Source: Bordetella parapertussis
GTDB taxonomy: Bacteria > Pseudomonadota > Gammaproteobacteria > Burkholderiales > Burkholderiaceae_E
DNA: 35,629 nucleotides
Assembly: GCA_945883285.1 (NCBI GenBank)
Contig: CAMCXH010000010.1
Coordinates: 1-35,629, forward strand
Direction of reading: 5' to 3'
Position numbers and translations under genes: made by a program. Within the stretch, counting starts at the first letter, position 1. Each line of letters starts with the position of its first letter. This document shows, piece by piece, positions 5,425 to 22,121 of this stretch. Under the pieces are notes generated by a model. It was not told the DNA's origin. It made no database searches and worked only from the letters and a program-made list of their open reading frames with translations.

Positions 5425-5485
5425 CGTCGTGTCTCGGATGCCTCAGACAATCTGCAGCCTGCCTGTTTACCATGAGCCCTGCGGG

Positions 5486-6640: not shown

Positions 6641-6641
6641 T
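6636..6641 (+). promoter_or_regulatory. Candidate -10 box (TATAAT)
   Basis: A perfect TATAAT overlaps the VanZ-like stop codon, 28 bases before the GTG start of the ferredoxin gene. No good -35 is visible at 16-18 bases upstream, so it may be a weak or activator-dependent promoter. Confidence 0.45.
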
Positions 6642-6669
6642 CGGCGATTGACCCTGAAGGCAGGCTGCC

Positions 6670-6981
6670 GTGAGCCATTTCGCCAAGCACATCTTCTTTT
6701 GCCTTAACGAGCGAACCGACGGCCGCGAATGCTGTGCCCACCAGGGCGCCGAAGCACTGCAGGTCCATGCCAAAAAGCGGGTCAAGGAACTCGGCCTGAG
6801 CGGCCCGGGGCAGGTTCGCGTCAACAAGGCGGGTTGCCTCGATCGCTGCGAACACGGCCCGGTGGCGGTCGTCTATCCCGAGGGCGTCTGGTACACCTTC
6901 GTCGACAAGCTCGACATTGACGAGATCGTCGAGAAGCATCTGCGCGACGGGGAGCCGGTCGAGCGCCTGCGCATCGACTGA
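6670..6981 (+). CDS. Thioredoxin-like [2Fe-2S] ferredoxin domain protein
   Basis: A 103-residue protein starting with GTG and preceded by GAAGGCAGG. Cysteines at 11, 21, 22, 56 and 60 fit the pattern of thioredoxin-fold [2Fe-2S] ferredoxins; the C56-x3-C60 pair in 'NKAGCLDRCEHGP' is the most diagnostic. It is probably a soluble cytoplasmic electron carrier, with partner unknown. It is followed 27 bases later by the alpha/beta hydrolase gene and probably shares its transcript. No oddities are seen. Confidence 0.87.
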   Translation: MSHFAKHIFFCLNERTDGRECCAHQGAEALQVHAKKRVKELGLSGPGQVRVNKAGCLDRCEHGPVAVVYPEGVWYTFVDKLDIDEIVEKHLRDGEPVERLRID

Positions 6982-7008
6982 TCCGATTCGATCAGAGACC
7001 CTGCCCCC

Positions 7009-7659
7009 ATGACCGCCCAAACCAGCGTGATCGGCCTGAACGGCGCGGCCGGCCGCATCGACGTTGCAATCGACCGTCCGGCGCAGGGCGCGGTGCGGGG
7101 CATCGCGGTGATCGCACATCCGCATCCGCTTTATGGCGGCACGCGCGACAACAAGGTGGTCCAGACCATGGCGCGGGCGCTGCTCGCGCTCGGCTTCGTC
7201 TGCTGGCGACCCGATTTTCGCGGCGTCGGCGATTCGGCCGGTGTGCATGACGAGGGCCACGGCGAAACCGACGACCTGATCGTCGTGGTCGACGCCGCCC
7301 GTGCAGCCGAGGCCGACGCCCACCCTGAGGCCGATGGTGCCGCGCTGCCCCTGGTGCTCGCCGGTTTTTCCTTCGGCACCTTTGTGCTGTCGCGGGTCGC
7401 GGCGCGACTGGCCCAGGCCGGCAAGCCGGCCTCCCGACTGGTCTTTATCGGCGCGGCCGCCTCGCGCTTCACGATCGAGACAGTACCGACAGACACCCTG
7501 GTCATCCACGGTGAACTCGATGACACCGTGCCGCTGCAGTCGGTCCTCGACTGGGCCCGACCGCAGGACTTGCCGGTCGTGGTCATCCCGGGTGCCGATC
7601 ATTTCTTTCACCATCGACTGACCGGTCTCAAGCAGTTGCTGCTGCGCGAGTTGCGCTGA
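7009..7659 (+). CDS. Alpha/beta hydrolase, short cytoplasmic type
   Basis: A 216-residue alpha/beta hydrolase. The nucleophile elbow is GFSFGT with Ser121; Asp172 in 'GELDD' and His198 in 'PGADHFF' complete a plausible triad. An 'HPHPLYGG' oxyanion-region motif (residues 37-44) and 'RPDFRGVGDS' are typical of a widespread small bacterial family often annotated only as hydrolase. There is no signal peptide and no lid domain. The substrate is unknown. It lies between the ferredoxin and a conserved hypothetical gene in the same orientation. Confidence 0.9.
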   Translation: MTAQTSVIGLNGAAGRIDVAIDRPAQGAVRGIAVIAHPHPLYGGTRDNKVVQTMARALLALGFVCWRPDFRGVGDSAGVHDEGHGETDDLIVVVDAARAAEADAHPEADGAALPLVLAGFSFGTFVLSRVAARLAQAGKPASRLVFIGAAASRFTIETVPTDTLVIHGELDDTVPLQSVLDWARPQDLPVVVIPGADHFFHHRLTGLKQLLLRELR

Positions 7660-7668
7660 GGGTTGCCA

Positions 7669-8190
7669 ATGGCCGAGCCGCTCGACCCCCGTCTGGTCTA
7701 TGCCAGAACCGACGACACCGACGACGCTTCGCCGGCGCTCGCCCGCCTGACACCGCCGGCGCGACGGCTGCTGCGCCTGATCGACGGCCGGCGTGCACTC
7801 GCCCAGCTGCCCAACCATGTGCGCCCGGGCGAGCTGCCGGGGCTGCTCGACGAACTCGCGGCTTATGGACTGATCGTGCTCTCGGGCATTCTCGAGGAGC
7901 TGCCCGCCGGTTGGACCAATGCCCGTGATCCGCGTCTGGACGACTTCAAGCTGCGTGTTCGCGGATCGGTCGAGCGCGAACTCGGCGCCGCCGGACGTGT
8001 GCTCGAAGCGCGGCTGCAGGACTGCGTCAACATGACCGTCATGCGCGGTGTGCTGCGCGAAGTCATCGAGCTGGTCCGGATCCGCGCCAGCGTCGAGGCC
8101 GCCGATCGGGTCGCGGCGGCGGCCCAGGCAGCCAACACCGCCTGGGCACTGCGCGAGTCGGGCGGTTCGCCCCCGCCTGCCCGGGGCTGA
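7669..8190 (+). CDS. Conserved hypothetical protein, 173 aa
   Basis: I do not recognise a named domain. The ATG at 7669 lies nine bases after the hydrolase stop, preceded by GAGGG; an in-frame TTG at 7663 is less likely. The protein is soluble and charged, with an N-terminal helical part that includes 'LTPPARRLLRLIDGRRAL', reminiscent of a winged-helix-like segment, and a long C-terminal helix rich in Arg, Glu, Ala and Val. No membrane span or signal is visible. Position and tight spacing suggest cotranscription with the hydrolase. Confidence 0.75.
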   Translation: MAEPLDPRLVYARTDDTDDASPALARLTPPARRLLRLIDGRRALAQLPNHVRPGELPGLLDELAAYGLIVLSGILEELPAGWTNARDPRLDDFKLRVRGSVERELGAAGRVLEARLQDCVNMTVMRGVLREVIELVRIRASVEAADRVAAAAQAANTAWALRESGGSPPPARG

Positions 8191-8204
8191 GCCTGCCTCG
8201 CCGG

Positions 8205-8210
8205 TATAAT
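8205..8210 (+). promoter_or_regulatory. Candidate -10 box (TATAAT) for dacC
   Basis: A perfect TATAAT lies 55 bases before the dacC start and just after the stop of the upstream gene. The expected -35 position is GC-rich and does not match consensus. It is the most plausible promoter for the dacC-dat-ybeD-lipB-lipA string. Confidence 0.45.
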
Positions 8211-8264
8211 CAATCGTCTTTTCCGACCACTTTTCGCCCTTCAACCGGCGAACACTCCCCCCAG

Positions 8265-9530
8265 ATGTCCTACCGCATCCCGGCTCGTTCCATTGCGTCG
8301 CTTCTTGCGCTCACGCTTGCTCTGACGATCCCGATGGCGCCGGCCGGGGCAGCCGGCAAGATCGGTTCGAGCAGCAAGGCCGGGGCAGCCGCCAGCTCGA
8401 CAAAACCTGCGCCCCCCGGCGTCCCCGCGAGTCAGGGGCTCGGCGCACAGGGCGCCCCGCAGATCGCCGCACGCTCATGGCTGCTCATGGACCTCACCAC
8501 CGGCCAGCTGCTCGCCGCAAGCGATCCCGACATGCGGGTCGAGCCGGCGTCGCTCACCAAGCTGATGACCGCCTATCTCGTCTTCAATGCGGTCCAGGAC
8601 AAGAAGCTCGCCCTCGACACCCGCCCGCCGGTCTCGGCCTATGCCTACAAGGCGATCGGCTCACGGATGTTCGTCGAGCCGGCCAGCCCGGCCACCGTCG
8701 ACGAACTGCTTCACGGCCTGATCATCCAGTCGGGCAACGATGCGGCGATCATCCTGGCCGAGACGCTCGGCGGCAGCGAAGAGGGCTTCGTCAAGCAGAT
8801 GAATGCGCAGGCCCAGAACATGGGGCTCAAGAACACGCGCTTTACCAATGCCTCGGGTCTGCCCGATGCGCAGCACTATTCCACCGCGCGCGATCTGGCG
8901 AGCCTGAGCGCCCGGCTGATTCAGGATCATCCCGATTTCTACAAGCTCTACGCCCAGCGCGATTACACCTTCAACGGCATCAAGCAGCCCAACCGCAATC
9001 GCCTGCTGTTCATCGACCCGTCGGTCGATGGCGTGAAAACCGGCCATACCGATGCAGCAGGCTTTTGCCTGATCGCGTCGAGCCGCCGCGACCAGCCGGG
9101 GCTGGGCGTCTCGCGACGGCTTCTGTCGGTGGTGCTGGGCACCGCCTCCGAGTCGGCCCGGGCAATCGAATCGCAAAAGCTGCTCAACTACGGCTTTTCG
9201 GCCTTCGAGCTGGTCGAACTCTTTCCCAAGGGCAAGCCGCTTGGTGCCTACCGGGTCTGGAAGGGCGCGGTACCGGAGGTCAAGGCCGGATTCAACGGCA
9301 GCATCCTGGTCACCGTGCTGCGCGGCCAGGCTGATCGCGCCAAGGCCGACATCGAACGCACCGAGCCGCTGATTGCACCGATCGCCAAGGGCCAGCGCCT
9401 GGGCACGCTGCATGTCAAGCTCGACGACAAGCCGGTCGCCGACTACCCGCTGATCGCGCTCGACGCGGTCGAGCAGGCCGGCTTCCTGGGCCGCAGCTGG
9501 GACACCCTTCAACTCTGGTTCAAACGATGA
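8265..9530 (+). CDS. dacC: D-alanyl-D-alanine carboxypeptidase (PBP5/6 family)
   Basis: A 421-residue periplasmic enzyme that removes the terminal D-Ala from peptidoglycan pentapeptides. The three active-site motifs are present: SLTK with Ser96 and Lys99, SGN at 156-158 and KTG at 258-260. An N-terminal signal peptide ends near 'APAGAAG', followed by an Ala/Ser/Pro-rich linker. The C-terminal PBP5_C domain ends in a short amphipathic helix ('RSWDTLQLWFKR') suited to inner-membrane anchoring. The stop overlaps the next ATG (ATGA), coupling it to the D-amino-acid transaminase. Paralogues are common, so the exact symbol (dacA or dacC) is uncertain. Confidence 0.95.
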   Translation: MSYRIPARSIASLLALTLALTIPMAPAGAAGKIGSSSKAGAAASSTKPAPPGVPASQGLGAQGAPQIAARSWLLMDLTTGQLLAASDPDMRVEPASLTKLMTAYLVFNAVQDKKLALDTRPPVSAYAYKAIGSRMFVEPASPATVDELLHGLIIQSGNDAAIILAETLGGSEEGFVKQMNAQAQNMGLKNTRFTNASGLPDAQHYSTARDLASLSARLIQDHPDFYKLYAQRDYTFNGIKQPNRNRLLFIDPSVDGVKTGHTDAAGFCLIASSRRDQPGLGVSRRLLSVVLGTASESARAIESQKLLNYGFSAFELVELFPKGKPLGAYRVWKGAVPEVKAGFNGSILVTVLRGQADRAKADIERTEPLIAPIAKGQRLGTLHVKLDDKPVADYPLIALDAVEQAGFLGRSWDTLQLWFKR

Positions 9531-10405
9531 ACGACCTGCAGACCGTCTATCTCAATGGCGACTTCATGCCGATCGAAGAAGCCCGGGTACCGGTGCTCGA
9601 TCGCGGCTTCATCTTTGGCGACGGCGTCTATGAAGTGGTGCCGGTCTACCGCCGCCAGCCGTTTCGATGGTCTCAGCACTACACGCGCCTTGAGCGCAGC
9701 CTGGGTCGGCTGCGCATCGACAATCCTTTTGACGCCGACGGCTGGCGGGGTCTGGTCGATGCGCTGATCGCCCGCCATCCCTGGGACGATCAGTTCATCT
9801 ACCTGCAGGTCACCCGCGGCGTCGCAAAGCGCGACCATGCCTTTCCGAAGGGTGTCACGCCAACGGTCTTCGGGATGAGCAGTGCGCTGCCGCTGGTACC
9901 CGCGGAGCAGCTTGCCCGCGGCGTGAGCGTGGTGTCGCTGCCCGATGAGCGCTGGCTCAACTGCGACATCAAATCCACCTCGCTGCTGGGCAATGTGCTG
10001 GCGCGACAAAGTGCGATCGATGCCGGCGCCGCTGAGTGTGTGATGTACCGCGACGGATTCCTCACCGAGGGGTCGTCGAGCAATATCTGGGTGGTTCGCG
10101 ACGGTCGGGTACTGGCGCCGCCTCGTGACAGGCTGATCCTCGAAGGCATCCGCTACGGGCTGCTGCATGAGCTGTGCGAGTCGCAGGGCTTGCCGTTCGA
10201 GATGTGCCCGATTTCGCGTGCCGAAGTCGAGTCGGCCGACGAACTGATGCTCAGTTCGGCCACCAAGGAGGTGCTGCCGATCACCCGCCTCGACGGCCGC
10301 CCGGTCGGCAGCGGCGAGCCCGGGCCGGTCTTTGCCCGGCTGCACGCCGCCTATCAGCAGGCCAAGGCCAGTTCGGCCAGCACCGACCCCGGGGCCTCGC
10401 GATGA
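9527..10405 (+). CDS. dat: D-amino-acid transaminase (class IV PLP aminotransferase)
   Basis: A 292-residue fold-type IV PLP enzyme. The N-terminus 'VYLNGDFMPIEEARVPVLDR' is diagnostic for the family, the PLP lysine is Lys149 in 'NCDIKSTSLLGNVLA', and the 'GSSSNIW' phosphate-binding segment follows. D-alanine transaminase is the best call because of the CDIKS context and because it is translationally coupled to a D,D-carboxypeptidase: D-Ala released by DacC could be recycled to pyruvate or D-Glu. Branched-chain transaminase or aminodeoxychorismate lyase are less likely. It overlaps both neighbours by four bases. Confidence 0.9.
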   Translation: MNDLQTVYLNGDFMPIEEARVPVLDRGFIFGDGVYEVVPVYRRQPFRWSQHYTRLERSLGRLRIDNPFDADGWRGLVDALIARHPWDDQFIYLQVTRGVAKRDHAFPKGVTPTVFGMSSALPLVPAEQLARGVSVVSLPDERWLNCDIKSTSLLGNVLARQSAIDAGAAECVMYRDGFLTEGSSSNIWVVRDGRVLAPPRDRLILEGIRYGLLHELCESQGLPFEMCPISRAEVESADELMLSSATKEVLPITRLDGRPVGSGEPGPVFARLHAAYQQAKASSASTDPGASR

Positions 10406-10707
10406 CGTCTGCCGATGCGCCGGCACCCGCCGATGGCCCGGTCGACCGACTCTCGCAGCTGCTGCAGTTTCCGGTCGACTTCCCGATCAAGATCATGGGC
10501 GCCCGGGTCGATGAGTTTGCCAACGAGATCGCGGCGGTCATCACCCGCCATGCGCCCGATTTCGATGTCGCGACCCTCGAATTGCGCAGCTCGAGCAAAG
10601 GCAACTACCTCGGGCTGACTGCCACCATCCGCGCCACCTCACGCGATCAGCTCGATGCGATCTATCGCGAGCTGACCTCGCATCCGCTGGTCAAGGTCGT
10701 CCTGTAG
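10402..10707 (+). CDS. ybeD: YbeD-like (DUF493) protein
   Basis: A 101-residue small soluble protein starting at the ATG that overlaps the dat stop (ATGA). Conserved YbeD features are visible: 'LLQFPVDFPIKIMG' near the start and 'SSKGNYLGLTATI' in the middle, ending with 'HPLVKVVL'. The family has an ACT-like fold and is nearly always next to lipB, as here. A regulatory or partner role in lipoate metabolism is suspected for the family but not demonstrated by this sequence. Confidence 0.92.
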   Translation: MTSADAPAPADGPVDRLSQLLQFPVDFPIKIMGARVDEFANEIAAVITRHAPDFDVATLELRSSSKGNYLGLTATIRATSRDQLDAIYRELTSHPLVKVVL

Positions 10708-10728
10708 GCAGGCGAGCCAGCTTTTTCA

Positions 10729-11367
10729 TTGCCAGCGACCGTGATCCTCATTCGCCCCTTGCGTGCAGCGCCCTATCTGCCGACGCTCGAGGCGATGCGC
10801 GCCTTTACCGCTACCCGCGATGATCAGACCCCCGACGAGATCTGGCTGATCGAGCATCCGCCGGTTTTCACACAAGGGCTCTCCGGAAAACCGGAGCATG
10901 TGCTTACTACCACCGAGATTCCCGTCATTCAGACCGAGCGCGGCGGGCAGGTCACTTATCACGGCCCGGGGCAGGTGGTCGCCTACACCCTGATCGATCT
11001 GCACAGGCGCGCGTTCGGTGTACGCGATCTGGTCTGCCGGCTCGAAGCCGCCGCGATCGATGTGTGTGCGGCGCACGGCGTGCGCGTCATGCGCAAACCC
11101 GGCGCTCCGGGGCTTTACCTGAGTACACCCGAGCCCGGCGCCAAGATCGCCTCGCTCGGCCTGAAGGTCAGCCGAGGCTGCAGCTTTCATGGCATCGCCC
11201 TGAACGTCGACATGGATCTGCGTCCATTTGAGTCGATCAACCCCTGCGGGTATGCTGGTCTGGCGGTGACCGATCTGGCGCATGCCGGCCCGGCACGCCA
11301 TCCCGATCTCGCCCTCGTCGCCCATGATCTGGGCGCAGCCCTGTCCGATCACCTCCAGCGCTCATGA
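10729..11367 (+). CDS. lipB: Octanoyl-[acyl carrier protein]:protein N-octanoyltransferase (LipB)
   Basis: LipB moves the octanoyl group from acyl carrier protein to lipoyl domains, the first step of endogenous lipoate synthesis. Motifs seen are [12 protein letters not shown] at residues 71-82, the catalytic lysine in '[10 protein letters not shown]' (Lys139) and the catalytic cysteine in 'NPCGY' (Cys173). Length is normal at 212 residues. The start is not certain: a TTG at 10729 is used here, and a GTG at 10741 in the same frame would shorten it by four residues. The stop overlaps the lipA start. Confidence 0.95.
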
Positions 11368-12383
11368 CCGATCCTGCCGAACCCGTCAGCCCTGCCGCCC
11401 CTGTCACCGCCGCGCCTGCCTACGACCCGTCAGCCAAGCACAAGGGCGCCGGCAAGACCGCCCGCATCCCGATCAAGGTGGTGCCGGCCGAGGAGGTGCT
11501 GCGAAAGCCGCCCTGGATCAGAGTACGAGCCGCCACGTCCACCAGCCGCTTCACCGAGATCAAGCAGATCCTGCGCGAGCATCGGCTGCACACCGTCTGC
11601 GAAGAAGCCTCCTGCCCCAACATCGGCGAGTGCTTCGGCAATGGCACCGCCACCTTCATGATCATGGGCGACAAGTGCACGCGGCGCTGCCCCTTCTGCG
11701 ATGTCGGCCACGGCCGTCCCGACCCGCTCGATGCCGAGGAGCCCGACAATCTCGCCCGCACGATTGCCGCACTGCGCCTGTCGTATGTGGTCATCACCTC
11801 GGTCGATCGCGACGATCTTCGCGATGGCGGCGCGCAGCATTTCGTCGACTGTATCCGGCAGGTGCGGGCGCAGTCGCCGTCCACCCGGATCGAGGTGCTG
11901 GTGCCCGACTTTCGCGGCCGACTCGACCGGGCGCTGGCCATCCTCGAGGCAGCCCCCCCCGACGTCATGAATCACAACCTCGAGACCGTGCCGAGGCTGT
12001 ACAAAGAAGCGCGCCCCGGCTCCGATTACGCCCACTCGCTCAGGCTGCTGGCCGACTTCAAACAGCGCGTGCCGGGCGTGCCGACCAAGTCGGGACTGAT
12101 GGTCGGGCTGGGCGAAACCGACGACGAGATCGTGCAGACCATGCGCGACATGCGGGCCCACGACATCGACATGATTACCATCGGCCAGTACCTCGCGCCG
12201 ACCTCGCATCACCTTCCGGTGCGCCGCTATGTGCATCCGGATGTCTTCAGCCAGTTCGAAGCCACAGCGAAAGCCTTGGGGTTCACTCACGCCGCGGTGG
12301 GCGCCATGGTCCGGTCTTCCTACCATGCCGATCAGCAGGCCCATGCAGCCGGCGTCGGCAGTGCGCACTTGAGTGCTGGTTGA
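11364..12383 (+). CDS. lipA: Lipoyl synthase (LipA), radical SAM enzyme
   Basis: A 339-residue radical SAM protein that inserts two sulfurs into the octanoyl group delivered by LipB. The auxiliary cluster cysteines are C79, C84 and C90 ('[12 protein letters not shown]') and the radical SAM cysteines are C105, C109 and C112 ('CTRRCPFC'). The C-terminal '[11 protein letters not shown]' segment carries the conserved R-S-S-Y block. The N-terminus has a short Ala/Pro-rich extension. Its ATGA overlap with lipB indicates coupled translation. It ends the housekeeping run; what follows looks accessory. Confidence 0.97.
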
Positions 12384-12493
12384 ACAAACGCCAATGGTGA
12401 ATAAGTTACGAGTCTGAAGGGGTAATTCACTACTTTCTGCTGCGCGCGATCAATACGCTTTGCCAATCGGTCGTTTGACTTTGCGAGGCGAAA
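12384..12493 (+). promoter_or_regulatory. AT-richer leader of the LuxR-type gene with an inverted repeat
   Basis: This 110-base spacer is visibly richer in A+T than its surroundings. It contains GTGAAT at 12397-12402 and its reverse complement ATTCAC at 12425-12430, centres 28 bases apart. This could be an operator, for example for autoregulation. GAGG at 12485-12488 is the likely ribosome-binding site. No convincing -35/-10 pair was found. Confidence 0.35.
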
Positions 12494-13177
12494 ATGGGCG
12501 TGGCTGAATTCGGCATTGATTCACTGGGCATCGATATTCCCGCCTTGGATGACGATTCCCCTGAGCGCGCAATGCTGCTCTCGGTCATCGACGAATTCGA
12601 CTACGGCGTCATTCTGCTCACCAGTCAGGGCGACCTGGTTGTGGCGAACGACATGGCCCGTTGGCATCTGGCGCAGGCATCCGTCTTCCTGCTGCGCAAT
12701 GGCCGTCCTGTCCCGGCCGAACCCCGAGACGAACGCCGCTGGCGTGCGATGTTGATGCTCACGACGAAAGACGGTCGAAGCCTGGATTTTTTTGGCATCG
12801 CACCGTCCATCCTGACAGTCGCGGTCTCGCCAGTCGGGTATCGCGCACGCGCGGGAATGGTTGCGAACGTGCTCGTCACCTTCGGCAAGCAATCGGTCTG
12901 TCAGCAAATCAGCCTGACCGCTTTTGCCCAATCTCGCGGCCTGACGTCCACCGAAGCGCGCGTTCTGGAGTCGCTCGCCCAAGGCTACACCCCTCAGCAG
13001 ACCGCAACAGAACACGGGGTCGCCATTTCAACGATTCGCACCCATGTCCGGCAAGTCCTGTCCAAGACCGGTTGCAGCTGTCTGCGCGACTTGCTCAGTC
13101 AGGTTTCTCGCCTGCCACCGATCCGATCGAAGATCAGGTCTGCGCAACAGCACGGCGACCGTCACGCCAGCCGCTGA
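12494..13177 (+). CDS. LuxR-type HTH transcriptional regulator with PAS-like N-terminal region
   Basis: A 227-residue regulator. The C-terminal part (about residues 148-205) is a LuxR/GerE helix-turn-helix, with 'LTSTEARVLESLAQGYTPQQ' followed by 'VAISTIRTHVRQVLSKTG'. Residues ~30-130 look PAS-like, beginning 'VIDEFDYGVILLTSQGDLVV', so a small-molecule or redox signal may be sensed. There is no receiver domain and no autoinducer-binding signature. It stands alone after lipA with its own leader, and a Crp-type regulator and the large enzyme gene follow on the same strand. Targets are unknown; control of the large enzyme gene is a reasonable guess. Confidence 0.88.
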   Translation: MGVAEFGIDSLGIDIPALDDDSPERAMLLSVIDEFDYGVILLTSQGDLVVANDMARWHLAQASVFLLRNGRPVPAEPRDERRWRAMLMLTTKDGRSLDFFGIAPSILTVAVSPVGYRARAGMVANVLVTFGKQSVCQQISLTAFAQSRGLTSTEARVLESLAQGYTPQQTATEHGVAISTIRTHVRQVLSKTGCSCLRDLLSQVSRLPPIRSKIRSAQQHGDRHASR

Positions 13178-13216
13178 TCCGGATCGATCTGCAGACACCG
13201 CCCCAATCACGCACGC

Positions 13217-13296
13217 TGCACACCTGAGGGACGCCATCGGATCCCGGTTCGCGTGAATCGGGCGCAAACCTTCGACCGACCGCCTTTGCACACCTG
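13217..13296 (+). promoter_or_regulatory. Two identical TGCACACCTG copies exactly 70 bp apart, upstream of the Crp-like gene
   Basis: TGCACACCTG occurs at 13217-13226 and again at 13287-13296. The spacing is close to seven helical turns, which would put both on the same DNA face. They lie in the 230-base gap before the Crp-type regulator. The CACACCTG core recurs upstream of the large enzyme gene and of the cyclase gene. Binding sites for a dimeric regulator are plausible; the bound protein is unknown. Confidence 0.4.
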
Positions 13297-13407
13297 CGAG
13301 GTCAGTCCATCTGCGCCCGTCATAACCGCCAGCCATTGCTCGCGTGTAACATCCTTGAGGCGATACTTGCCAAGGCAACAACTGGCAGGACCGCGCCACA
13401 AAACACG

Positions 13408-14037
13408 ATGACAGACGAGCGATTTCCCGACAACGCCATTGGGCGACTTGCGCAAAGAGGCGTGACCCGTCGATTCGCACGGGGAGTGATTCTGATCCAG
13501 GAGGGGGACGAGGGGGACTCGCTCTATATCGTCCTGAGCGGGCAGGTCAAGGTATTCGTCCAGGGTGACGACGGCCGTGAGTTCGTCCTGGGGCTCTTCG
13601 ACGCCGGCGACTATGTCGGTGAAATGTCTCTCGACGGCGGGCCGCGGTCAGCTTCGGTCATGACCACCCAAACCACCAGATGCTCGGTGGTGTCGCGGGC
13701 AGCCTTGACAGACTTTCTGAAGGACCACCCCGAATTTGCCTTCGACCTGCTCAGTCGGGTCATTCGAAGAGCGAGGCTTGCCACCGAGTCAGTTCGAGGA
13801 CTGGCGTTAATGAACGTCTACAGCCGAATTGCTCAATTGCTGCAGTCTCAACCCAAGGCCAGCGGGAGCCTTGGAGGCCACGGAATCCAGCGCCTGTCCC
13901 ATCAGGAAATTGCCAACCGTGTCGGATGCTCGCGAGAAATGGTCAGCCGAATCATGAAAGACCTGGCAACGGGCGGGTATCTGTCGGTCGGCCAGGATGT
14001 GATTACCCTGATCAAACCCCTTCCAGCGGCCTGGTAG
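13408..14037 (+). CDS. Crp/Fnr-family transcriptional regulator, CRP-like
   Basis: A 209-residue protein with a cyclic-nucleotide-binding domain and a C-terminal HTH. The phosphate-binding cassette keeps Gly71-Glu72 and Arg80-Ser81-Ala82, the residues that bind cAMP in E. coli CRP, and it lacks the N-terminal cysteine cluster of FNR. The HTH (about 164-187) reads 'LSHQEIANRVGCSREMVSRI', very close to CRP including the Arg/Glu recognition positions, so a TGTGA-like half-site is expected. The start is placed at the ATG at 13408; the frame is open further upstream. It sits directly before the large multidomain gene, and a nucleotide cyclase is encoded nearby. Confidence 0.9.
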   Translation: MTDERFPDNAIGRLAQRGVTRRFARGVILIQEGDEGDSLYIVLSGQVKVFVQGDDGREFVLGLFDAGDYVGEMSLDGGPRSASVMTTQTTRCSVVSRAALTDFLKDHPEFAFDLLSRVIRRARLATESVRGLALMNVYSRIAQLLQSQPKASGSLGGHGIQRLSHQEIANRVGCSREMVSRIMKDLATGGYLSVGQDVITLIKPLPAAW

Positions 14038-14385
14038 CAACTCCGGCTGCGATCTGCGAGGTGACCAGCTGTGGACTCCGTTTCAGGGTCGCTCGTTCAT
14101 TCATTTCGCCGATCCGCTGAGCTTCAGGTGTGAGTCGCCCGAAATGCCGAGGTCCTGTGGCAGGCAACGCCTGAGCAGACCGTTTGTGTTGTGCTTGCTG
14201 CCTCGCTGCCCAGGCCTCATCACTTCTGATGATGATTTTGTGTTTGCCGGACACTAAGCTTGGCGGTTTGCTCGATTCGGGCGATTCGGTCGACCACGGC
14301 GAGATCTTTCGCGTCCAGAGACCCTCAGCCCCTCCCGGCCGAAAGCGTCCGGTGCGCCAGCAAAGACGAACCAAGGAGGAGCGCC
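14038..14385 (+). promoter_or_regulatory. 348-base leader of the large enzyme gene
   Basis: No gene is seen here. It holds a CAGGTGTGAG element at 14125-14134 (a TGTGA half-site inside the CACACCTG core shared with neighbouring leaders). It also holds a short hairpin, TCATCA-CTTC-TGATGA, at 14217-14232, and a 9-base tandem repeat, CGATTCGGG/CGATTCGGT, at 14273-14290. AAGGAGG at 14373-14379 is an excellent ribosome-binding site six bases before the ATG. No clear -35/-10 pair was recognised, consistent with activator-dependent transcription. Confidence 0.5.
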
Positions 14386-17300
14386 ATGCAACCGGAATTT
14401 GAAGTCAGAACACCCAGCCTTGCAGCGTCGACCGAGCTTTTGGTCATGGCGCCGATACGAGCCGGCTTCGTGCCTGGCCTGGACACCGTGACCTACAAAA
14501 GCCGGGTTCAGACGCTTCTCAGGCAGCTTCATGCTGGCCGGCAAGGGCTGCACGAATACCGACCGCTTCGTGCGGTCTCAGACGCGGTGGAGCGCGTCGG
14601 CGTCATCCGCTCGCTGCGGGTGGCCGTCGTCGAGGGCCGAAACGAAACAGATGACCGTATCCTGCTTTCGGTGCACTTCGACGGCTCCTACGAGGCATAC
14701 GCGAGGACAATCTGGCAGCGGGCCGCACGCCTGCTCGACCTGATCTTCTGCAACTCCGAGGCTTACGTCACCGGATGGGACCACTCGTTCGATGACTGGG
14801 CCTCCTGGATCCGCTCGGTGCAGGTGCCCACGCCGTTCTTTTATGCGTCGCCGGGCCTGACCTTCCAGGACCAGACCTACCTGCTGATGCACGAGCGCCG
14901 CGACCGGGGCGGCGCCGGCGACGAAACTGCCCGCACGCGCATCGCCGTGCCGACGGCCGAGGAGATCGCTTGGTCGATCCTCAGCCGGGAGCTAGACCCA
15001 ACCAAGCGCGACGATGAGCAGGACGCAGGGGGTTCGCTGGTCAGGACCGAGAAGTTCCGCCAGAACCTCGGTGCACTGGCGGCGCTTTATCGCCTGGCCG
15101 ATTGGTACCGCCCCGACACGCCTGACGGCGCCGTGCTGCGCAACGCCGCGCACGAATTGCTGCCGCAACTGGTCGACGCCTTCGACTGCGCAGGCCACAA
15201 CCGTACGCTGGCCGAGGCCGTGAAGATCGCTGCCGGGCGGCAGTTGGAAAGGCCGCTGGCCTGGTTCCGCACCGGGCTAGACGATGTGCCGCCCGCCCGA
15301 TGCGGCACTGAACTGCCAGAGCATTCGCCGCAGCCGCAGCCGGCCGATGATGTGCAGGGTGGCATCCTCGCACCGTTCGAAGGTGCGCCCGATGGTGCGA
15401 TGGTCCTGCTGGCCTTCGACGGCCCGGCCGCCGCTTTCGCGTTCCTGGATGGGTTCCAGACGACGACGCGGGACGGCAAAGACACACCCGCCGATGCGCA
15501 GCTCGTCAATCTCGCGCTCACGCTCGAGGGTCTGCGTACCTGCGGGCTGACGGCGGCACAGCTCGAGGCCTGGCCCCCGGAGTTCCGGCAAGGCATGGCG
15601 GCGCGAGCCGGGCTGCTGGGCGACGTGCGCTGGAACCACCCGCGCCGCTGGGTACTGCCGCGCCGCAATGGCGGGCTGCCGCCCAACCCGACGCGCAATG
15701 ACAGCGGCTTGGCACCCGTCCCGCTGGAGTCGGTCCATGCGATCGTTCAGTTCCGTCGGCGACCCGTGGCGGGTAAGCGTAGCGACGCCGTCGCGGCGAT
15801 CGCCGAGGCGATCGAGCAACTGCCGCGAAAATTCTCCGGCGTCACCCTGCTGTCGGTGCAGTGGCTCGCACGACAGTTTTATGGCAAGGACACGGTCGAT
15901 CACTTCGGCTACATGGATGGGCAATCGCAGCCGACTTATGACCGCCGTCCGGCCGATAGCCCGTATTCGAACCAGGTTCACCTGGGCGAGGTGCTGGTTG
16001 GCTACCCCAACGCCGCCGATCGCGAATGCGACCTGGCGGTCAACCGCGACCCGGAGCTCAGCAGCCTGCTTCGCAATGGCAGCTTCCTGGTCGTGCGCAA
16101 GCTGCGCCAGGACGTCGCAGGCTTCCACGACGCAGCGACGAAGGCGGCTGGGGCCACCGACATCGATGACGCCGGGATCCGTGCCCGGATGATGGGCCGT
16201 TGGCCGGCCGACGCCACTGCCCATCGGGGCGAGCCGCTGGCCGAGATGGGCAGTGGCGGCATCAACGACTTCGACTACCGCGGTGACGAGCACGGCGACA
16301 TCACGCCGCTGGCCGCGCACATCCGGCGCGCGAACCCCCGCAGCTCGACCCTGGACACCGAATTCCCGAAGCCCCCGCCCGGCGGGCGGCCGCCGCGGAT
16401 CGTGCGCCGCAGCCTGTCCTACGGGCCACCGGTGCCTGCGGACGGCAATCCCGACGATGTCGACCGGGGCCTTGTCTTCATGGCCTACAACGCCAGCATC
16501 GCCGAGCAGTTCGAGGTCATCCAGGGCTGGCTGGCCGGTGGCAACAGTTCGCGCGGCTACTCCGGCGCCGCCTGCCCCTTCCTCGGCGTGCCCGAGGCAG
16601 GGCGCGAGCGCAACTTCCGCTTCCTGAACGGTACAAGCACGGTCCATATGACGCTCGATGGCAGCGATGACCTGGGGGCCGAGCCCAAGCCGCTGGTCAG
16701 CCTGCAATGGGGTCTGTACGCCTTCGCACCCTCGCGCTCGGCGCAGGCACGCCTGGCCGAGATCGCGAAGGGAGCCGGCGCAACTGCCACGCTGCCCTGG
16801 TCGGTCGACCGTGGCCAGCAGCTGATCGATCGCTTGCGACGCAAGGAAGCCGATGCCGGCGCCGTCGCAGGCGCCGCGGCATGGAAGGCCGCGCTCGAAG
16901 ACCCCGAGCCAGTGGCCCGCTTCGACAGCGCGTCGATCTGGGCCGCGGTGCGGCAGCTGCACGGGGGCTTGCTGCGCATCCCCTACGGGGTCTTGGTGGC
17001 AACGCCCGAGCTGGTGGACGAGGTGCTAAGCGACGAGACCCGCTACACCGTTGCCGGCTACCGGCGGCGCCTGGTCGCCGCAGGCATGGGCCCGATCTTC
17101 CTCGGCCGCGACGCCGACGACCCGGAGTACGCGCGGCTGTCAGCGGCGTGCAACCAGGCCGTCGAAGACATCGGGATGGCACAGGCGTTCGCAGACGGAC
17201 GCAACGCGGCCCTGGCCTGGCTCGACAGCTGGCTCGGCTATGCCGAGGCGATCGCCCGGGACTACGGCGACCCCACCTGGGAAGCCTCGGTCGACCCTCG

Positions 17301-19098
17301 CGAGCTGGTCGCCCAGACGCTGGCAAACTTGTGCGAAACCTGGTTCGGCCTGAACGACACGACCCCCGCAGAAGGCGGCCGTCAGCTGTTCCAGCGCGGC
17401 GTGCTGGACTGGGAATGGCGGCCCGGGGATCCGGTGTTCTACCCGGGTCACTTCACCGCCGCCTCGCGTGCGACTTTCCAGCCCGAGCCCTCGGCCGAGG
17501 TCATGCGGCTGGCCGCCGAGCATGGCCATGCGCTGACAAGCGCCCTGACCGAATTCATCAAGAAAGAGGGAGCGGCGTCGATTACCGCACCGGTCACCCG
17601 GGCGGTGCTTGACGACCTCTGGGAGGCGAGCCCGCAGGATGCCGTTCACACCATTGCCGGCGCGTTGATGGGCTTCCTGCCGACCACTGAGGGCGTGTTG
17701 CGGCGCGTGCTGACCGAGTGGACGCGCGACGGCACGCTGCTTGAGCTGAGTGGGCGTGTGCAAGGCGTGGGCCTGACAAATTGGGATACCGCTGGGCCGA
17801 TCGTCTCGCCCGCTCTGCGGCGGGCAATGAAGTTCCGCCCTGTGCCCGAGCAGATCTGGCGCGAGGCAAAGACGGCGCACCGGCTCGAGGGCGCCGGCGG
17901 AACCAGCATCGAAGTCCACCCCGGCGACAAGCTGGTACTGGGGCAGGTTTCGGCCACCCACGCGCAGCTCGAGCAGGGCAAGGCTGCCGACGTCTTCGCG
18001 ATGTTCGGTGGGCGCCGCGGCGCCGGGCAGCCGACGCATGCCTGCCCCGGCTATAGCGCTGCCATCGGTGCGATGGTGGGTCTGGTGACGGCCTTGCTCG
18101 GACCGTTACGGGGCGGGCTTGCACCCTCGACGGCGGGCGTGCTGGTCTTCCGCGGCACGACACAGCACCCGGTTGAGCAAGCCACCCCAAGTTGGCAGAA
18201 GGCCACGCTCGCCGTCGGGCCGGGGGAGAATCGTCGACTGCTTGGCTTCGGAGACTCCTGGTTGCGCTTCCAGATCGAGAACAGCACGACCGGCAGCGAC
18301 CTGATGCGCGCACTCGCCGATCTGGGCTACGACACCCGCAACTTCGCTCCGAACGGCTCTGCCAAGCATGGCTACCGTCTGGCGCTGATGGCCCAAGAAC
18401 TTCCCTCCAATGGCAAGTCCATCTATGGAACGCTGCGCAAACTCGTCAAGGCCGGTACGCCCCCTTTTGCCGTACTGCTTGGCGCAGGAGGCAATGACTT
18501 TATCGACGGCGTCGACACCAGTCCGCTGACCGGCTGCCTGCAGAATGGCGCCGGCTCGGTGCTTGACCGGGTGCTGAACCGCGAGGGCGCGAATCCAGCG
18601 TACGACCAGCAACACCTGAATGACTTCCTCGTCAGTATGACCGGCCATCTGACATTCATCGTGACCGAGCTGGCCCGTGCCGGCGGGGGCATCGGCTCGC
18701 CGACGCAGGTCCCTATCGTGGTCCATGCCTATGACCATCCATGGCCCAACGGCGAAAAATACATTTTCCTCATGTGCCCGTGGCTCAAACCAAGCTTTGA
18801 ACGCAAAGGCTATACCTCCGCCGATCTGACCACTACCGCCGGCCTGATGTCCACGTTCATCGACCAGTTGAACGACGCCTATGCCCACACCATCAATACG
18901 CTTGCCGGGACGGGCATCCGCGTTACTTTCGTTCGCCTGACCGGCGTGCTGGCGGAGACCGCCGAATTCAAGCAGGGCGATTACAGGGCTGTCTGGAAGA
19001 ACGAGATGCACCCCAACAAGACCGGGTTTGCGGCGCTGGCGAGGCACTTGCATACCCACGGGTTGATGCCGTTGGTGCCTCCCATGCCAGTCATTTAG
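14386..19098 (+). CDS. Multidomain fusion: N-terminal region, DyP-type peroxidase, cytochrome P450-like, SGNH hydrolase
   Basis: One uninterrupted frame of 1570 residues with a strong AAGGAGG before its ATG. Residues 1 to about 320 are not recognised. From about 322 ('DVQGGILAPF') to about 770 it reads as a DyP-type haem peroxidase: G508-x-x-D511-G512 (GYMDG), proximal haem His645 in 'AHIRRANPR', Arg674/675 in 'RRSLSYG'. About 845-1240 resembles a cytochrome P450 with haem-ligand Cys1220 in 'PTHACPG', but the K-helix ExxR is replaced by R1146-x-x-K1149 and the I-helix has AGALM (1091-1095) without the usual acid/Thr. About 1280-1570 is an SGNH hydrolase: GDS with Ser1291, GGND with Asn1370, and His1542 in 'NEMHPN'. 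No signal peptide is seen. Domain calls are motif-based; the reaction is unknown. Confidence 0.85.
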   Translation: MQPEFEVRTPSLAASTELLVMAPIRAGFVPGLDTVTYKSRVQTLLRQLHAGRQGLHEYRPLRAVSDAVERVGVIRSLRVAVVEGRNETDDRILLSVHFDGSYEAYARTIWQRAARLLDLIFCNSEAYVTGWDHSFDDWASWIRSVQVPTPFFYASPGLTFQDQTYLLMHERRDRGGAGDETARTRIAVPTAEEIAWSILSRELDPTKRDDEQDAGGSLVRTEKFRQNLGALAALYRLADWYRPDTPDGAVLRNAAHELLPQLVDAFDCAGHNRTLAEAVKIAAGRQLERPLAWFRTGLDDVPPARCGTELPEHSPQPQPADDVQGGILAPFEGAPDGAMVLLAFDGPAAAFAFLDGFQTTTRDGKDTPADAQLVNLALTLEGLRTCGLTAAQLEAWPPEFRQGMAARAGLLGDVRWNHPRRWVLPRRNGGLPPNPTRNDSGLAPVPLESVHAIVQFRRRPVAGKRSDAVAAIAEAIEQLPRKFSGVTLLSVQWLARQFYGKDTVDHFGYMDGQSQPTYDRRPADSPYSNQVHLGEVLVGYPNAADRECDLAVNRDPELSSLLRNGSFLVVRKLRQDVAGFHDAATKAAGATDIDDAGIRARMMGRWPADATAHRGEPLAEMGSGGINDFDYRGDEHGDITPLAAHIRRANPRSSTLDTEFPKPPPGGRPPRIVRRSLSYGPPVPADGNPDDVDRGLVFMAYNASIAEQFEVIQGWLAGGNSSRGYSGAACPFLGVPEAGRERNFRFLNGTSTVHMTLDGSDDLGAEPKPLVSLQWGLYAFAPSRSAQARLAEIAKGAGATATLPWSVDRGQQLIDRLRRKEADAGAVAGAAAWKAALEDPEPVARFDSASIWAAVRQLHGGLLRIPYGVLVATPELVDEVLSDETRYTVAGYRRRLVAAGMGPIFLGRDADDPEYARLSAACNQAVEDIGMAQAFADGRNAALAWLDSWLGYAEAIARDYGDPTWEASVDPRELVAQTLANLCETWFGLNDTTPAEGGRQLFQRGVLDWEWRPGDPVFYPGHFTAASRATFQPEPSAEVMRLAAEHGHALTSALTEFIKKEGAASITAPVTRAVLDDLWEASPQDAVHTIAGALMGFLPTTEGVLRRVLTEWTRDGTLLELSGRVQGVGLTNWDTAGPIVSPALRRAMKFRPVPEQIWREAKTAHRLEGAGGTSIEVHPGDKLVLGQVSATHAQLEQGKAADVFAMFGGRRGAGQPTHACPGYSAAIGAMVGLVTALLGPLRGGLAPSTAGVLVFRGTTQHPVEQATPSWQKATLAVGPGENRRLLGFGDSWLRFQIENSTTGSDLMRALADLGYDTRNFAPNGSAKHGYRLALMAQELPSNGKSIYGTLRKLVKAGTPPFAVLLGAGGNDFIDGVDTSPLTGCLQNGAGSVLDRVLNREGANPAYDQQHLNDFLVSMTGHLTFIVTELARAGGGIGSPTQVPIVVHAYDHPWPNGEKYIFLMCPWLKPSFERKGYTSADLTTTAGLMSTFIDQLNDAYAHTINTLAGTGIRVTFVRLTGVLAETAEFKQGDYRAVWKNEMHPNKTGFAALARHLHTHGLMPLVPPMPVI

Positions 19099-19118
19099 TG
19101 ACCGGCGCGGCAGGGCTG

Positions 19119-22100
19119 TCAGACCTGCCCGGCGATGCCCATGGCCTGCAAGCGGGCTCGTGCATCGGCCTCGACCGGCGCGGCGGCGTCGGGGCACGAG
19201 TCTTCGCGCAGCAGCCGCACGCGCAGCAGGTTGTTCAGCGCCGCCTCGCGCGCCGACTGCCGGCGGGCGGCCGAGGCGTCGGCCCGGGCCAGCCGGCGCC
19301 AGGCGCGGCCGTGGTCCCCCTGCTCAAGTGCCACCGTCGCCATCGCGCGCCAGCCGGCGGCTTCCCCCAGCCGTTCACCGGCACGCGCCCGCTGAAGCAG
19401 ACGGCCCGCCCACCGCATGGCCTCGTCGGGCCGACCGGCCTCGACCGACATCTCGACCAGCCATCCGTAGTACAGGGTCGTGAAGAAAAGGACCCGGTGG
19501 TTCTCCATCCAGCGGACGGCCTCGGCGGTCTCGGCAATCGCGGCTGGGTCGCGGTAAAGGCGCCAGCGAGCATAGCCGCCCACCGCACGGGCAATCGACA
19601 GGGGCAGCAGCGCCCGCGATCGCTGCGCCAGTTCGGTCGTGGCGGCGACGACGGCAAGGACATCGTCCCAACGCCGCTGCCATGCAAGCACCACCATTTC
19701 CCAGTTACGCACCGAATTCGCCACCGGATGGTTGGGCTGGCCAACGATCAGCGCACGGGCACGGTCCAGCGCGTCGTGCGCGGCGACGAAGTCACCGCGG
19801 TCGCCGTGGACGCTGGCCAGGCAAGCCAAAGTGAAGGCAGAGCCGATTGCGAGGCCGCTGCTGCGTTGCGACTGCGACTGCTTGGTGTGCAGCGCGATGT
19901 CCATCGCCGCCAGCGCCGCAGGGTAGCGGCAAACGGCAGCGAGTACCTGGCCCAGTGTCGCGTCCACTTGCGCCAGCAGCCGCGGATTGCCCAGCGCCAA
20001 GGCAAGCGATCGCGCCTCCTCGGCCAACCGCGAGGCGCGGCGCGGCTGTCCGAAGACATAGCACAGGTACGCTTCCCAATAGAGCGATCGTGCGAGCAGT
20101 TCCTCGCCGCCGAGTTCGCGCGCCGTCTGGACACAGCGCTCGACGAGCGGCAGCGCCTCAGGAAGCGCCAGCGGATCGAACATGCAGGTCATACCCAATC
20201 GATGCACAAGCGAACACCAGCGCGCGCTTGCCGGGGCAGCCTCGATGCCGGCGAACTCAGCCGCCTCGATCGCCGCCAGGTACTGGCGACGCGCGCTGTC
20301 GAAGGCGCCAAGGCGCATTGCCTCGTCGGCGGCGGCCTCGCAGCGCTGGGTGGCCTGCGGCCAGTCGCCCGCGGCGCGGGCGTGGTGGGCCAGCGATTCC
20401 AGCCGTTCGATGGGGTCGAGCATGCCGGGGGCCAGGGTCTCGATGCGTTGGACAACCCGGCGATGGAGTGCGACGCGGCTGTCCAGCGGGATCAGCTCAT
20501 ACACTGCATCGCGCGACAGGCCGTGGCGAAAACGCACCGCGTCGGCGCTTTCAGCGTACAGCAGGTCGGCATCAGCCAGCTGTCGGAGCACCGTCTCCTG
20601 GATACCGCCAGGAAGCAGCTCGCCGATCTGCCAGCGTGGCGAGCGGATGCCGAGGACGGCGGCTGCCTGCACCGTGCTGAGTGCCGGCGGGTCGAGGCTT
20701 TCCAGGCGCGTCGCCATCAGCGACTTCATCCAGCTGCCCGAGCCGGCGCGTGGGCCGTTCTTGCGCAGCTGGCGCCAGCCCGCCTCGCCCCGGTGCCGCA
20801 GCATCTGGCACAACTCCTCGACGAGCAGCGGCACGCCGCCGGCGTATTCATGCAACTCGTCCTCGATAAAGGGATTGGTGCCGGGCACCAGGGCTTGGAC
20901 AATGCCGCGCGTTTGCGCCGGCGTGAGCGGTTGCGGACTGATGGCCACACGAGCCGTCTTCGCATCCAGGTCCTCCGCCTCGCGAGAGGCGACGACAACA
21001 TGCAGCGCCGACGTGGCGCTCAGAACATCATTGAGAAGCTGGCGGCTTGCGTCATCAGCCCACTGCCAGTCATCGAGCAGCAGCACATGACGGCCGTCGT
21101 CACACTCGGAGAACAGCCGCAGACATCGAGTGCGCAGGTCCTGAACGTCTGGCGTGCCTGGCGCGGCGTGCAGCGAGACGTCGCCGGTCTGCGTCGCCAG
21201 CAGCTGACGGAAGGGCTCGAGCACCGGCGTGATGCCGTACGACTCGCATCCACCGCGCAGGACGATCCGGCCGCAGCCGGCGAGCTGGTCTGCAAGCTCG
21301 TCGAGCAGGCGTGTCTTGCCGATGCCGGCCGGCCCGCGAATCTCGGTGACGCGCTGCCCGCCGGCCTCGCCCGAGCATGCCTTCAGCAGTTCGGCGAGGG
21401 CCCCGTCCCGCCCCAGCAGCGGCGACCGGCCGACCGAGCCGCGGGCATCGATGCGTCGGCGAAGCGCCCTGAGCCCGGTCACGCGCACGGTTCGCACGGG
21501 GACAGCGCGTCCTGGCAGCGACAGGTTGGCCTCACCGTCGTTGTCGAAGAATGCGAGTTCGGGGCCGAGCGAGTCGGCATCGGCCAGGATGCGGCCTCGC
21601 CCGGCGAAGGAGGCGAGCCGCGCCGCGGTGTTTGCGGCGTCGCCGACAACGTCGAGTTCGCCACGCGCACGGTCACCAGGCGACACGTAGACGAGCCCGG
21701 AATGCACGCCCGAATGCAGGGCCAGGCGCTGCAGCCCACCCGGCAGCCGCAATGCCGGCCAAGCGGCCACCGCGGCGTGCACCTCAATTGCCGCCTCGCA
21801 CGCATGGCGTGCGTCGTGTTCCGAAGCGATCGGATAGCCGAACACGGAGAGGCTGCCATCGCCCTGCGTGCGCACGACCTTCCCGCCGTGGCGTGACACC
21901 GCCACCGCGACTGCCCCGCGCACATCCTCCAGCAATGCCGCGAACGGCTCGAACTCCAGCTGGCCTGCCAGCACGCTGGAGCCACTCAAGTCTGTGAATA
22001 GGAGCGTCAGGAATTGGCGCCTGGGCGCCGGTTCGATGCCACCACCTGTGAGTGAGCCCATATCTGAAGTTTCAATCACTTGCGAACTCGAAATGTCGGC

Positions 22101-22121
22101 AGTGTCCTCGCGCCCGTCCAC
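19119..22121 (-). CDS. Class III nucleotide cyclase - AAA ATPase - TPR-like signalling protein
   Basis: A 1000-residue protein. Residues ~36-200 form a class III adenylate/guanylate cyclase domain: metal-binding Asp44 ('LFTDLSGSS') and Asp88 ('RTQGDG'), and the transition-state Asn164 and Arg168 in 'GDAANTAARL'. The position before TQGDG that often carries the base-selecting Lys is Arg85, so nucleotide specificity is open. An AAA/STAND-type ATPase follows with Walker A 'GPAGIGKTR' (about 260-270) and 'VLLLDDWQWAD', then several hundred residues of Ala-rich helical, TPR-like repeats. There is no membrane span. The start is uncertain: GTG at 22121 or the ATG at 22061. It converges on the large enzyme gene, 20 bases apart. 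It may make the ligand of the nearby Crp-like protein (inference). Confidence 0.88.
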   Translation of the reverse strand: MDGREDTADISSSQVIETSDMGSLTGGGIEPAPRRQFLTLLFTDLSGSSVLAGQLEFEPFAALLEDVRGAVAVAVSRHGGKVVRTQGDGSLSVFGYPIASEHDARHACEAAIEVHAAVAAWPALRLPGGLQRLALHSGVHSGLVYVSPGDRARGELDVVGDAANTAARLASFAGRGRILADADSLGPELAFFDNDGEANLSLPGRAVPVRTVRVTGLRALRRRIDARGSVGRSPLLGRDGALAELLKACSGEAGGQRVTEIRGPAGIGKTRLLDELADQLAGCGRIVLRGGCESYGITPVLEPFRQLLATQTGDVSLHAAPGTPDVQDLRTRCLRLFSECDDGRHVLLLDDWQWADDASRQLLNDVLSATSALHVVVASREAEDLDAKTARVAISPQPLTPAQTRGIVQALVPGTNPFIEDELHEYAGGVPLLVEELCQMLRHRGEAGWRQLRKNGPRAGSGSWMKSLMATRLESLDPPALSTVQAAAVLGIRSPRWQIGELLPGGIQETVLRQLADADLLYAESADAVRFRHGLSRDAVYELIPLDSRVALHRRVVQRIETLAPGMLDPIERLESLAHHARAAGDWPQATQRCEAAADEAMRLGAFDSARRQYLAAIEAAEFAGIEAAPASARWCSLVHRLGMTCMFDPLALPEALPLVERCVQTARELGGEELLARSLYWEAYLCYVFGQPRRASRLAEEARSLALALGNPRLLAQVDATLGQVLAAVCRYPAALAAMDIALHTKQSQSQRSSGLAIGSAFTLACLASVHGDRGDFVAAHDALDRARALIVGQPNHPVANSVRNWEMVVLAWQRRWDDVLAVVAATTELAQRSRALLPLSIARAVGGYARWRLYRDPAAIAETAEAVRWMENHRVLFFTTLYYGWLVEMSVEAGRPDEAMRWAGRLLQRARAGERLGEAAGWRAMATVALEQGDHGRAWRRLARADASAARRQSAREAALNNLLRVRLLREDSCPDAAAPVEADARARLQAMGIAGQV

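Follow-up and report, generated by a model that had tools for sequence, protein, structure and literature searches.

A single-chain fusion of a DyP-type peroxidase, a P450-like domain and an SGNH hydrolase in a conserved, apparently undescribed bacterial module

The window, that is, the whole stretch of 35,629 nucleotides analysed here, contains one stop-free frame of 1570 codons in which an N-terminal domain (N-dom), a DyP-type peroxidase domain, a P450-fold domain and an SGNH-type hydrolase domain follow one another in a single chain. A preliminary description of this DNA had proposed a fusion of the last three domains, and this proposal was borne out. As judged from sequences and structural models, the product is apparently an enzyme with two haems, probably cytosolic, and belongs to a conserved bacterial module that seems not to have been described before. 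What appears to be undescribed is a conserved di-haem fusion family with an exchangeable P450 or catalase-related partner and frequent lipases. Our best reading, to which we give a probability of roughly 0.5, is that peroxide drives this enzyme, without a redox partner, to act through its two haems on lipid (hydro)peroxides, which would make it a bacterial counterpart of the fungal and coral enzymes that form oxylipin signals. The features of the locus are collected in Table 1.

Table 1. Features of the fusion gene and its neighbours in the window (residue numbers refer to the fusion protein).
Feature	Position	Strand	Basis or remarks
LuxR-type regulator	12494..13177	+	upstream; also near some relatives
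CRP-type regulator with cyclic-nucleotide-binding domain	13336..14037	+	upstream; adjacent too in some relatives (L091, L102)
Shine-Dalgarno AAGGAGGA	14373..14380	+	sequence inspection, just 5' of the ATG
Fusion gene N-dom–DyP–P450-like–SGNH	14386..19098	+	1570 codons plus stop; architecture common to 16 other loci
N-dom, residues ~8-180	14407..14925	+	no match in Pfam or among PDB sequences; always accompanies this DyP clade
Helical linker region, residues ~181-315	14926..15330	+	secondary structure of AlphaFold model
DyP-type peroxidase domain, residues ~318-795	15337..16770	+	Pfam, TIGR01413, PDB, Foldseek, structural alignment
Distal Asp511 codon, GYMDG motif	15916..15918	+	Asp 39/41, Glu 2/41
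Proximal haem His645 codon	16318..16320	+	41/41
Distal Arg674 codon	16405..16407	+	41/41
P450-fold domain, residues ~811-1257	16816..18156	+	family profile, hhalign, AlphaFold model
Pro1099 codon, helix I GFLPTT, at the acid position of the acid-alcohol pair	17680..17682	+	alignment
Haem thiolate Cys1220 codon, HACPG	18043..18045	+	41/41
SGNH/GDSL hydrolase domain, residues ~1284-1570; Ser1291 at 18256, Asn1370 at 18493, His1542 at 19009	18235..19095	+	profile, alignment
Class III cyclase–AAA–TPR protein	19119..22121	-	convergent with the fusion gene; nearby in 61/70 relatives

The mechanically called open reading frame begins farther upstream, at a TTG. We accept the ATG at 14386, the start codon chosen in the preliminary description, because AAGGAGGA precedes it and N-dom opens only a few residues in. 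The codon composition of the gene has the coding pattern typical of this GC-rich genome, and the residue numbers given in the preliminary description (His645, Cys1220, Ser1291, Asn1370 and His1542) are exact.

A scan of 84,980 species genomes yielded 76 loci, in 66 of which N-dom, DyP and P450 lie in this order in one frame; the SGNH domain is additionally present in 16. Since these 66 relatives come from several classes, an assembly or frameshift artefact is ruled out. The predicted fusion proteins thus form a widely conserved bacterial family, much larger than one gene. The nearest relative, that of Ideonella alba, reaches 64 % in the best segment. Carriers include Bradyrhizobium japonicum, Roseateles/Pelomonas, Variovorax and Ideonella (Piscinibacter) sakaiensis 201-F6, and further Sphingomonas, Pseudomonadales and a Myxococcota MAG. 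In a tree of 65 fusion proteins including that of the window, the SGNH-bearing members all fall within one well-supported set of 31, and the distribution of this domain requires four gains or losses. Among the open-licence papers searched, a scope that makes this weak evidence, no description of a DyP–P450 fusion was found; a different DyP fusion, with pyruvate formate-lyase, is on record (PMC5041501).

Two carriers may be mentioned separately. The PET-degrading strain I. sakaiensis 201-F6 (locus L102) has the full four-part fusion in a frame of 1628 aa, and in Variovorax sp. WS11 (L103) the fusion is located on the isoprene plasmid pVarWS11_iso. A plasmid search returned mostly stand-alone DyPs, together with one partial DyP–P450 match in Sphingopyxis.

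The DyP part of the window protein is a member of the DyP family on every feature examined, namely the modelled fold, the Asp of the GxxDG motif, the Arg and the His. In the Pfam search PF20628 matched above its cut-off; TIGR01413 also matched the protein (E 1.2e-20), under its curated cut-off, and a comparison with PDB sequences gave 8re3 (E 8e-25). An AlphaFold model of residues 1-800 (pLDDT 86.9), calculated from an alignment of 41 natural sequences, superposes on the Deinococcus DyP 8re2 with a Z score of 34.8 and an rmsd of 2.7 A over 416 residues (27 % identity), and Foldseek matched it to 8re3 (E 1.8e-22). The conservation of the haem residues listed in Table 1 was counted in 41 aligned family members, and the domain is a predicted haem peroxidase with intact haem ligands. 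The D. radiodurans enzyme (8re2/8re3) shares the fold, the GxxDG motif, the distal Arg and the proximal His, but the solved protein stands alone, with no attached N-dom, P450 or hydrolase.

The preliminary description had left about 320 N-terminal residues as unknown. It is still true that they have no Pfam or PDB sequence match (for N-dom, PDB was searched to E 10), but they are now resolved into the helical linker and N-dom, for which the AlphaFold model gives the secondary structure strand-helix-strand-strand-helix. At the level of profile comparison, the idea that N-dom is a third DyP-like half received no support (hhalign probability <1 %). A search with N-dom alone, whatever its partners, detected it in 11 of 300 genomes at the level of the order and in 27 of 398 at that of the phylum. 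In the N-dom–DyP–P450 fusions this domain is present once. Tandem N-doms or two adjacent N-dom genes are seen where the parts are separate, for example at L012 (9505-10806, minus strand) and L010 (6354-7729, plus strand).

For the P450 part, PF00067 gave no match to the window protein in the Pfam search. The family profile, by contrast with this single-sequence result, recovers P450 structures (7qan, E 6e-5), and hhalign pairs it with a genuine P450 from a related module (E 2.6e-7). The AlphaFold model of residues 796-1570 (pLDDT 89.8) superposes in its P450 part on P450BioI 3eje with a Z score of 30.8 and an rmsd of 2.7 A over 342 residues, and the top Foldseek matches of this part are all P450s; structure prediction therefore upholds both the DyP and the P450 folds proposed earlier. 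Cys1220 lies in a loop of the HxCxG type (FGG...HACPG), and the thiolate Cys and the His-x-Cys pocket are invariant in all 41 aligned members. Two motifs are missing, however: the ExxR of helix K, which the alignment fails to show in any fused N-dom–DyP–P450 protein, and the acid-alcohol pair of helix I, in which the acid of the window protein is replaced by Pro1099. The earlier assignment holds for the fold and for Cys1220, with the correction that these motifs are absent, and in view of the model and the alignment we call the domain P450-like.

Without ExxR, haem binding could be weak, and Pro in place of the acid fits a P450 that does not need reductase-fed activation of O2. The sequence GxxPT is found in helix I of most P450s of the module, split or fused and in either domain order (departures occur at L078, L080, L009, L137, L142, L146, L147, L151 and L152). 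As a control, we inspected P450s outside the module in the same genomes, taking the best-scoring ones: the acid-alcohol pair is present in 24 of 25, and GxxPT in 0 of 25. A possible interpretation of the missing motifs, and of the failure of PF00067 to recognise the domain, is that it is a pseudoenzyme or an allosteric scaffold comparable to the P450-derived glycosyltransferase activators, catalysis being left to the DyP and SGNH domains. We consider this very improbable: an invariant thiolate Cys and His-x-Cys pocket would be needless in a scaffold, most split and P450-first relatives keep ExxR, and the split ones keep the Cys also. The CYP152 peroxygenases, bacterial enzymes of the P450 fold, work with peroxide and are without the usual acid-alcohol pair; they have Arg-Pro in helix I and are unfused, whereas the window protein has Pro-Thr with no Arg before the Pro, and has also lost ExxR.

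The SGNH profile PF13472 matches 15 of the 17 aligned family members (best 1.8e-12), and gives no match to the window protein's own sequence. The Ser/Asn/His esterase set named in the preliminary description, that is, Ser1291 of block I (GDS), Asn1370 of block III (GxND) and His1542, is invariant among the 17, but the usual triad Asp of block V is Asn1539 in the window and a corresponding Asn in most relatives; Asp is present in L088, L101, L102 and L127. The residue that follows this position is acidic in all 16 fused proteins compared. The predicted hydrolase is one that carries the SGNH motifs with an altered triad acid.

The composition of the module was assessed in a census of 37 N-dom loci picked without regard to their partners. 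Each of the 37 has a DyP, either fused to N-dom or next to it. As third partner, 23 loci have a P450, nine a catalase-related haem protein, five neither and none both; this zero overlap has a p value of 1.6e-5 if the loci are assumed to be independent, and kinship among them makes the true figure less extreme. In addition to N-dom–DyP–P450(–SGNH), the arrangements comprise chains of ~1400-1540 residues in the order P450–N-dom–DyP, in which N-dom is often present twice, P450–N-dom fusions plus a DyP, and separate neighbouring genes. Because such permuted fusions occur, it is the co-presence of the parts, not their order, that is conserved.

The catalase-related partners were identified from sequence: PF00199 matches two of them, one above the cut-off, and the best PDB matches of their profile are the small catalase-related protein 3e4w and the coral allene oxide synthase 1u5u. 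Many genomes also have similar catalase relatives that are not next to a DyP, so the DyP-linked partner is a sub-group of these. At L074, a DyP is fused to a catalase-like domain in a single chain of 900 aa, and this fusion is adjoined by a cyclooxygenase-type peroxidase gene (PF03098, 1008 residues) and a second catalase-related gene (5178-13389); two GST-like genes lie just past the fusion region, at 3254-4704. Other neighbours were noted at single loci. A RoxA-like cytochrome c (PF21419, a rubber-oxygenase relative; L084, 6384-7778, minus strand) adjoins an N-dom–DyP pair that has no P450 or catalase partner, a phosphoesterase-family protein (PF04185; L082, 1578-4625, minus strand) lies close to another N-dom–DyP pair, and a tyrosinase is encoded at the N-dom–DyP locus L079.

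Hydrolases recur as separate genes as well: a neighbouring SGNH gene is found at L055/L106 and L116, and neighbouring genes of patatin type at L008, L009 and L012 and in several fused relatives. The hydrolase is not obligatory, since 61 of the 93 P450-bearing loci have neither patatin nor SGNH within 6 kb. The two occur together in none of the 93, an exclusivity that alone is not significant (p ~0.07).

To our knowledge, fatty-acid hydroperoxide isomerases occur in two folds, P450 (CYP74 and the DOX-fused CYPs) and catalase-related (the coral enzymes). We favour a lipid hydroperoxide as the substrate of the module because both of these folds swap beside the same DyP. In the proposed mechanism, the SGNH hydrolase would free, or later release, an acyl chain or lipid; the DyP domain would be brought by peroxide to a ferryl/radical state and would oxidise the lipid or handle a lipid hydroperoxide; and the P450-fold domain, needing neither NAD(P)H nor a redox partner, would split and rearrange the hydroperoxide's O-O bond, in the manner of allene oxide, diol and epoxy-alcohol synthases. 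In other bacteria, the catalase-related haem protein would take over this third step. The oxylipin-type function suggested in the preliminary description is partly supported, by the strict exchange of P450 and catalase-related partners, the recurring lipases (patatin and SGNH), the loss of the helix I acid and the DyP–catalase fusion beside a cyclooxygenase-like peroxidase. The substrate would presumably be a lipid, with a (hydro)peroxide as the oxidant and a handover from DyP to P450, and the products and the role of the DyP are likewise putative.

A problem to be addressed is the source of the hydroperoxide. A lipoxygenase elsewhere in the genome was rejected as the source, as it is missing from 24 of 25 module genomes; cyclooxygenase-type genes are missing from 18 of 25. 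Given these counts, the hydroperoxide would have to be made by the module, arise by autoxidation or be taken from the surroundings. N-dom and DyP might together act as a DyP-based equivalent of cyclooxygenase: a dioxygenase that works on fatty acids by a radical route and supplies the hydroperoxide which the P450-fold or catalase-related partner isomerises. We know of no fatty-acid dioxygenation by DyP enzymes, and we regard this extension as doubtful; if true, it would mean that a bacterial oxylipin synthase was assembled independently of the fungal and animal ones.

The same scarcity of lipoxygenase and cyclooxygenase-type genes agrees with a detoxification or stress device, in which the DyP and its partner, P450-fold or catalase-like, would break down H2O2 or lipid peroxides and the hydrolase would remove oxidised acyl chains, no signal being made. 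The catalase-related partner, the phospholipase-type partners, which could trim peroxidised lipids, and the nearby CRP-type and cyclase regulators would also suit such a device. However, a P450 is a poor catalase, and the patchy spread of N-dom within the order is unusual for a general stress enzyme, so we take this explanation to be unlikely.

Somewhat more weight, though still clearly less than for the lipid (hydro)peroxide reading, should be given to a peroxide-driven tailoring or degradation enzyme with an aromatic, isoprenoid or peptide substrate, in which the DyP and P450-fold domains would both oxidise a non-lipid compound with H2O2 and an ester would be cleaved by the SGNH domain. Aromatic compounds are the best-known substrates of DyPs, SGNH enzymes accept a wide range of esters, the carriers include polymer and isoprene degraders (L102 and L103), and the RoxA-like cytochrome c and the tyrosinase noted above lie at N-dom–DyP loci. 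The recurrent patatin and, elsewhere, the cyclooxygenase-like gene fit a lipid better, and the surroundings of the relatives contain no conserved biosynthetic genes around the module.

If the lipid (hydro)peroxide reading is true, bacteria as common as Bradyrhizobium, Roseateles and Ideonella would make or remodel oxidised lipids by an apparently undescribed route with its own candidate regulator, and the plan of a peroxidase-type haem, a hydroperoxide-rearranging haem and an acyl hydrolase would have arisen again from different folds. It would also provide a function for the unnamed N-dom and an explanation for P450s that miss the oxygen-activating residue. The carriers include culturable bacteria, in which direct testing is possible.

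The fungal DOX–CYP enzymes (PpoA-type linoleate diol, allene oxide and epoxy-alcohol synthases; PMC13049297) likewise have two haem domains in one chain: in both cases a peroxidase-type domain with a His ligand comes first, and a P450 with a Cys ligand in an HxCxG pocket comes second. Among the fungal enzymes, self-sufficient hydroperoxide-rearranging P450 companions with this pocket are the rule (PMC13049297), whereas for the window protein a hydroperoxide handover is a proposal. The window protein also differs in having a DyP instead of a domain of the cyclooxygenase superfamily, in its extra N-dom and SGNH domains, in its bacterial origin and in the loss of ExxR. It may work like the fungal Ppo family, by analogy, but is not a member: PF03098 is missing from the protein and from genome G000.

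The coral fusions of a catalase-related allene oxide synthase with a lipoxygenase (1u5u/3dy5; PMC5617202) similarly join a haem domain that rearranges lipid peroxides, the putative role here, to an oxidising partner. The catalase-related fold fills the P450 slot in the nine related loci and is once fused to the DyP; the window protein itself has neither a lipoxygenase nor a catalase-fold domain, but a P450 fold instead. In oomycete CYP5619, a eukaryotic protein, a P450 is again fused to a partner, which the abstract describes as a peroxidase/dioxygenase, with no mention there of a DyP or a hydrolase (PMC5919972).

Two candidates concerning the neighbourhood were rejected. The plus-strand open reading frame 19098-21896, considered as a downstream partner, has no family match and is antisense to the cyclase–AAA–TPR gene. 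For a role in anti-phage defence, PADLOC matched nothing in the fusion; the one weak resemblance, to Pycsar cyclases, lies in the generic cyclase domain of the neighbouring protein. There are 20 bases between the end of the cyclase–AAA–TPR gene and the fusion gene, and several of the relatives in which the former is not found nearby are on short contigs. Together with the CRP-type gene, the cyclase gene would sense a signal and control the expression of the fusion, in a conjectural cyclic-nucleotide circuit. The metal-binding Asp residues of the cyclase are kept in 68 of 69 proteins and the Asn/Arg pair in most, and the protein may be an active cyclase.
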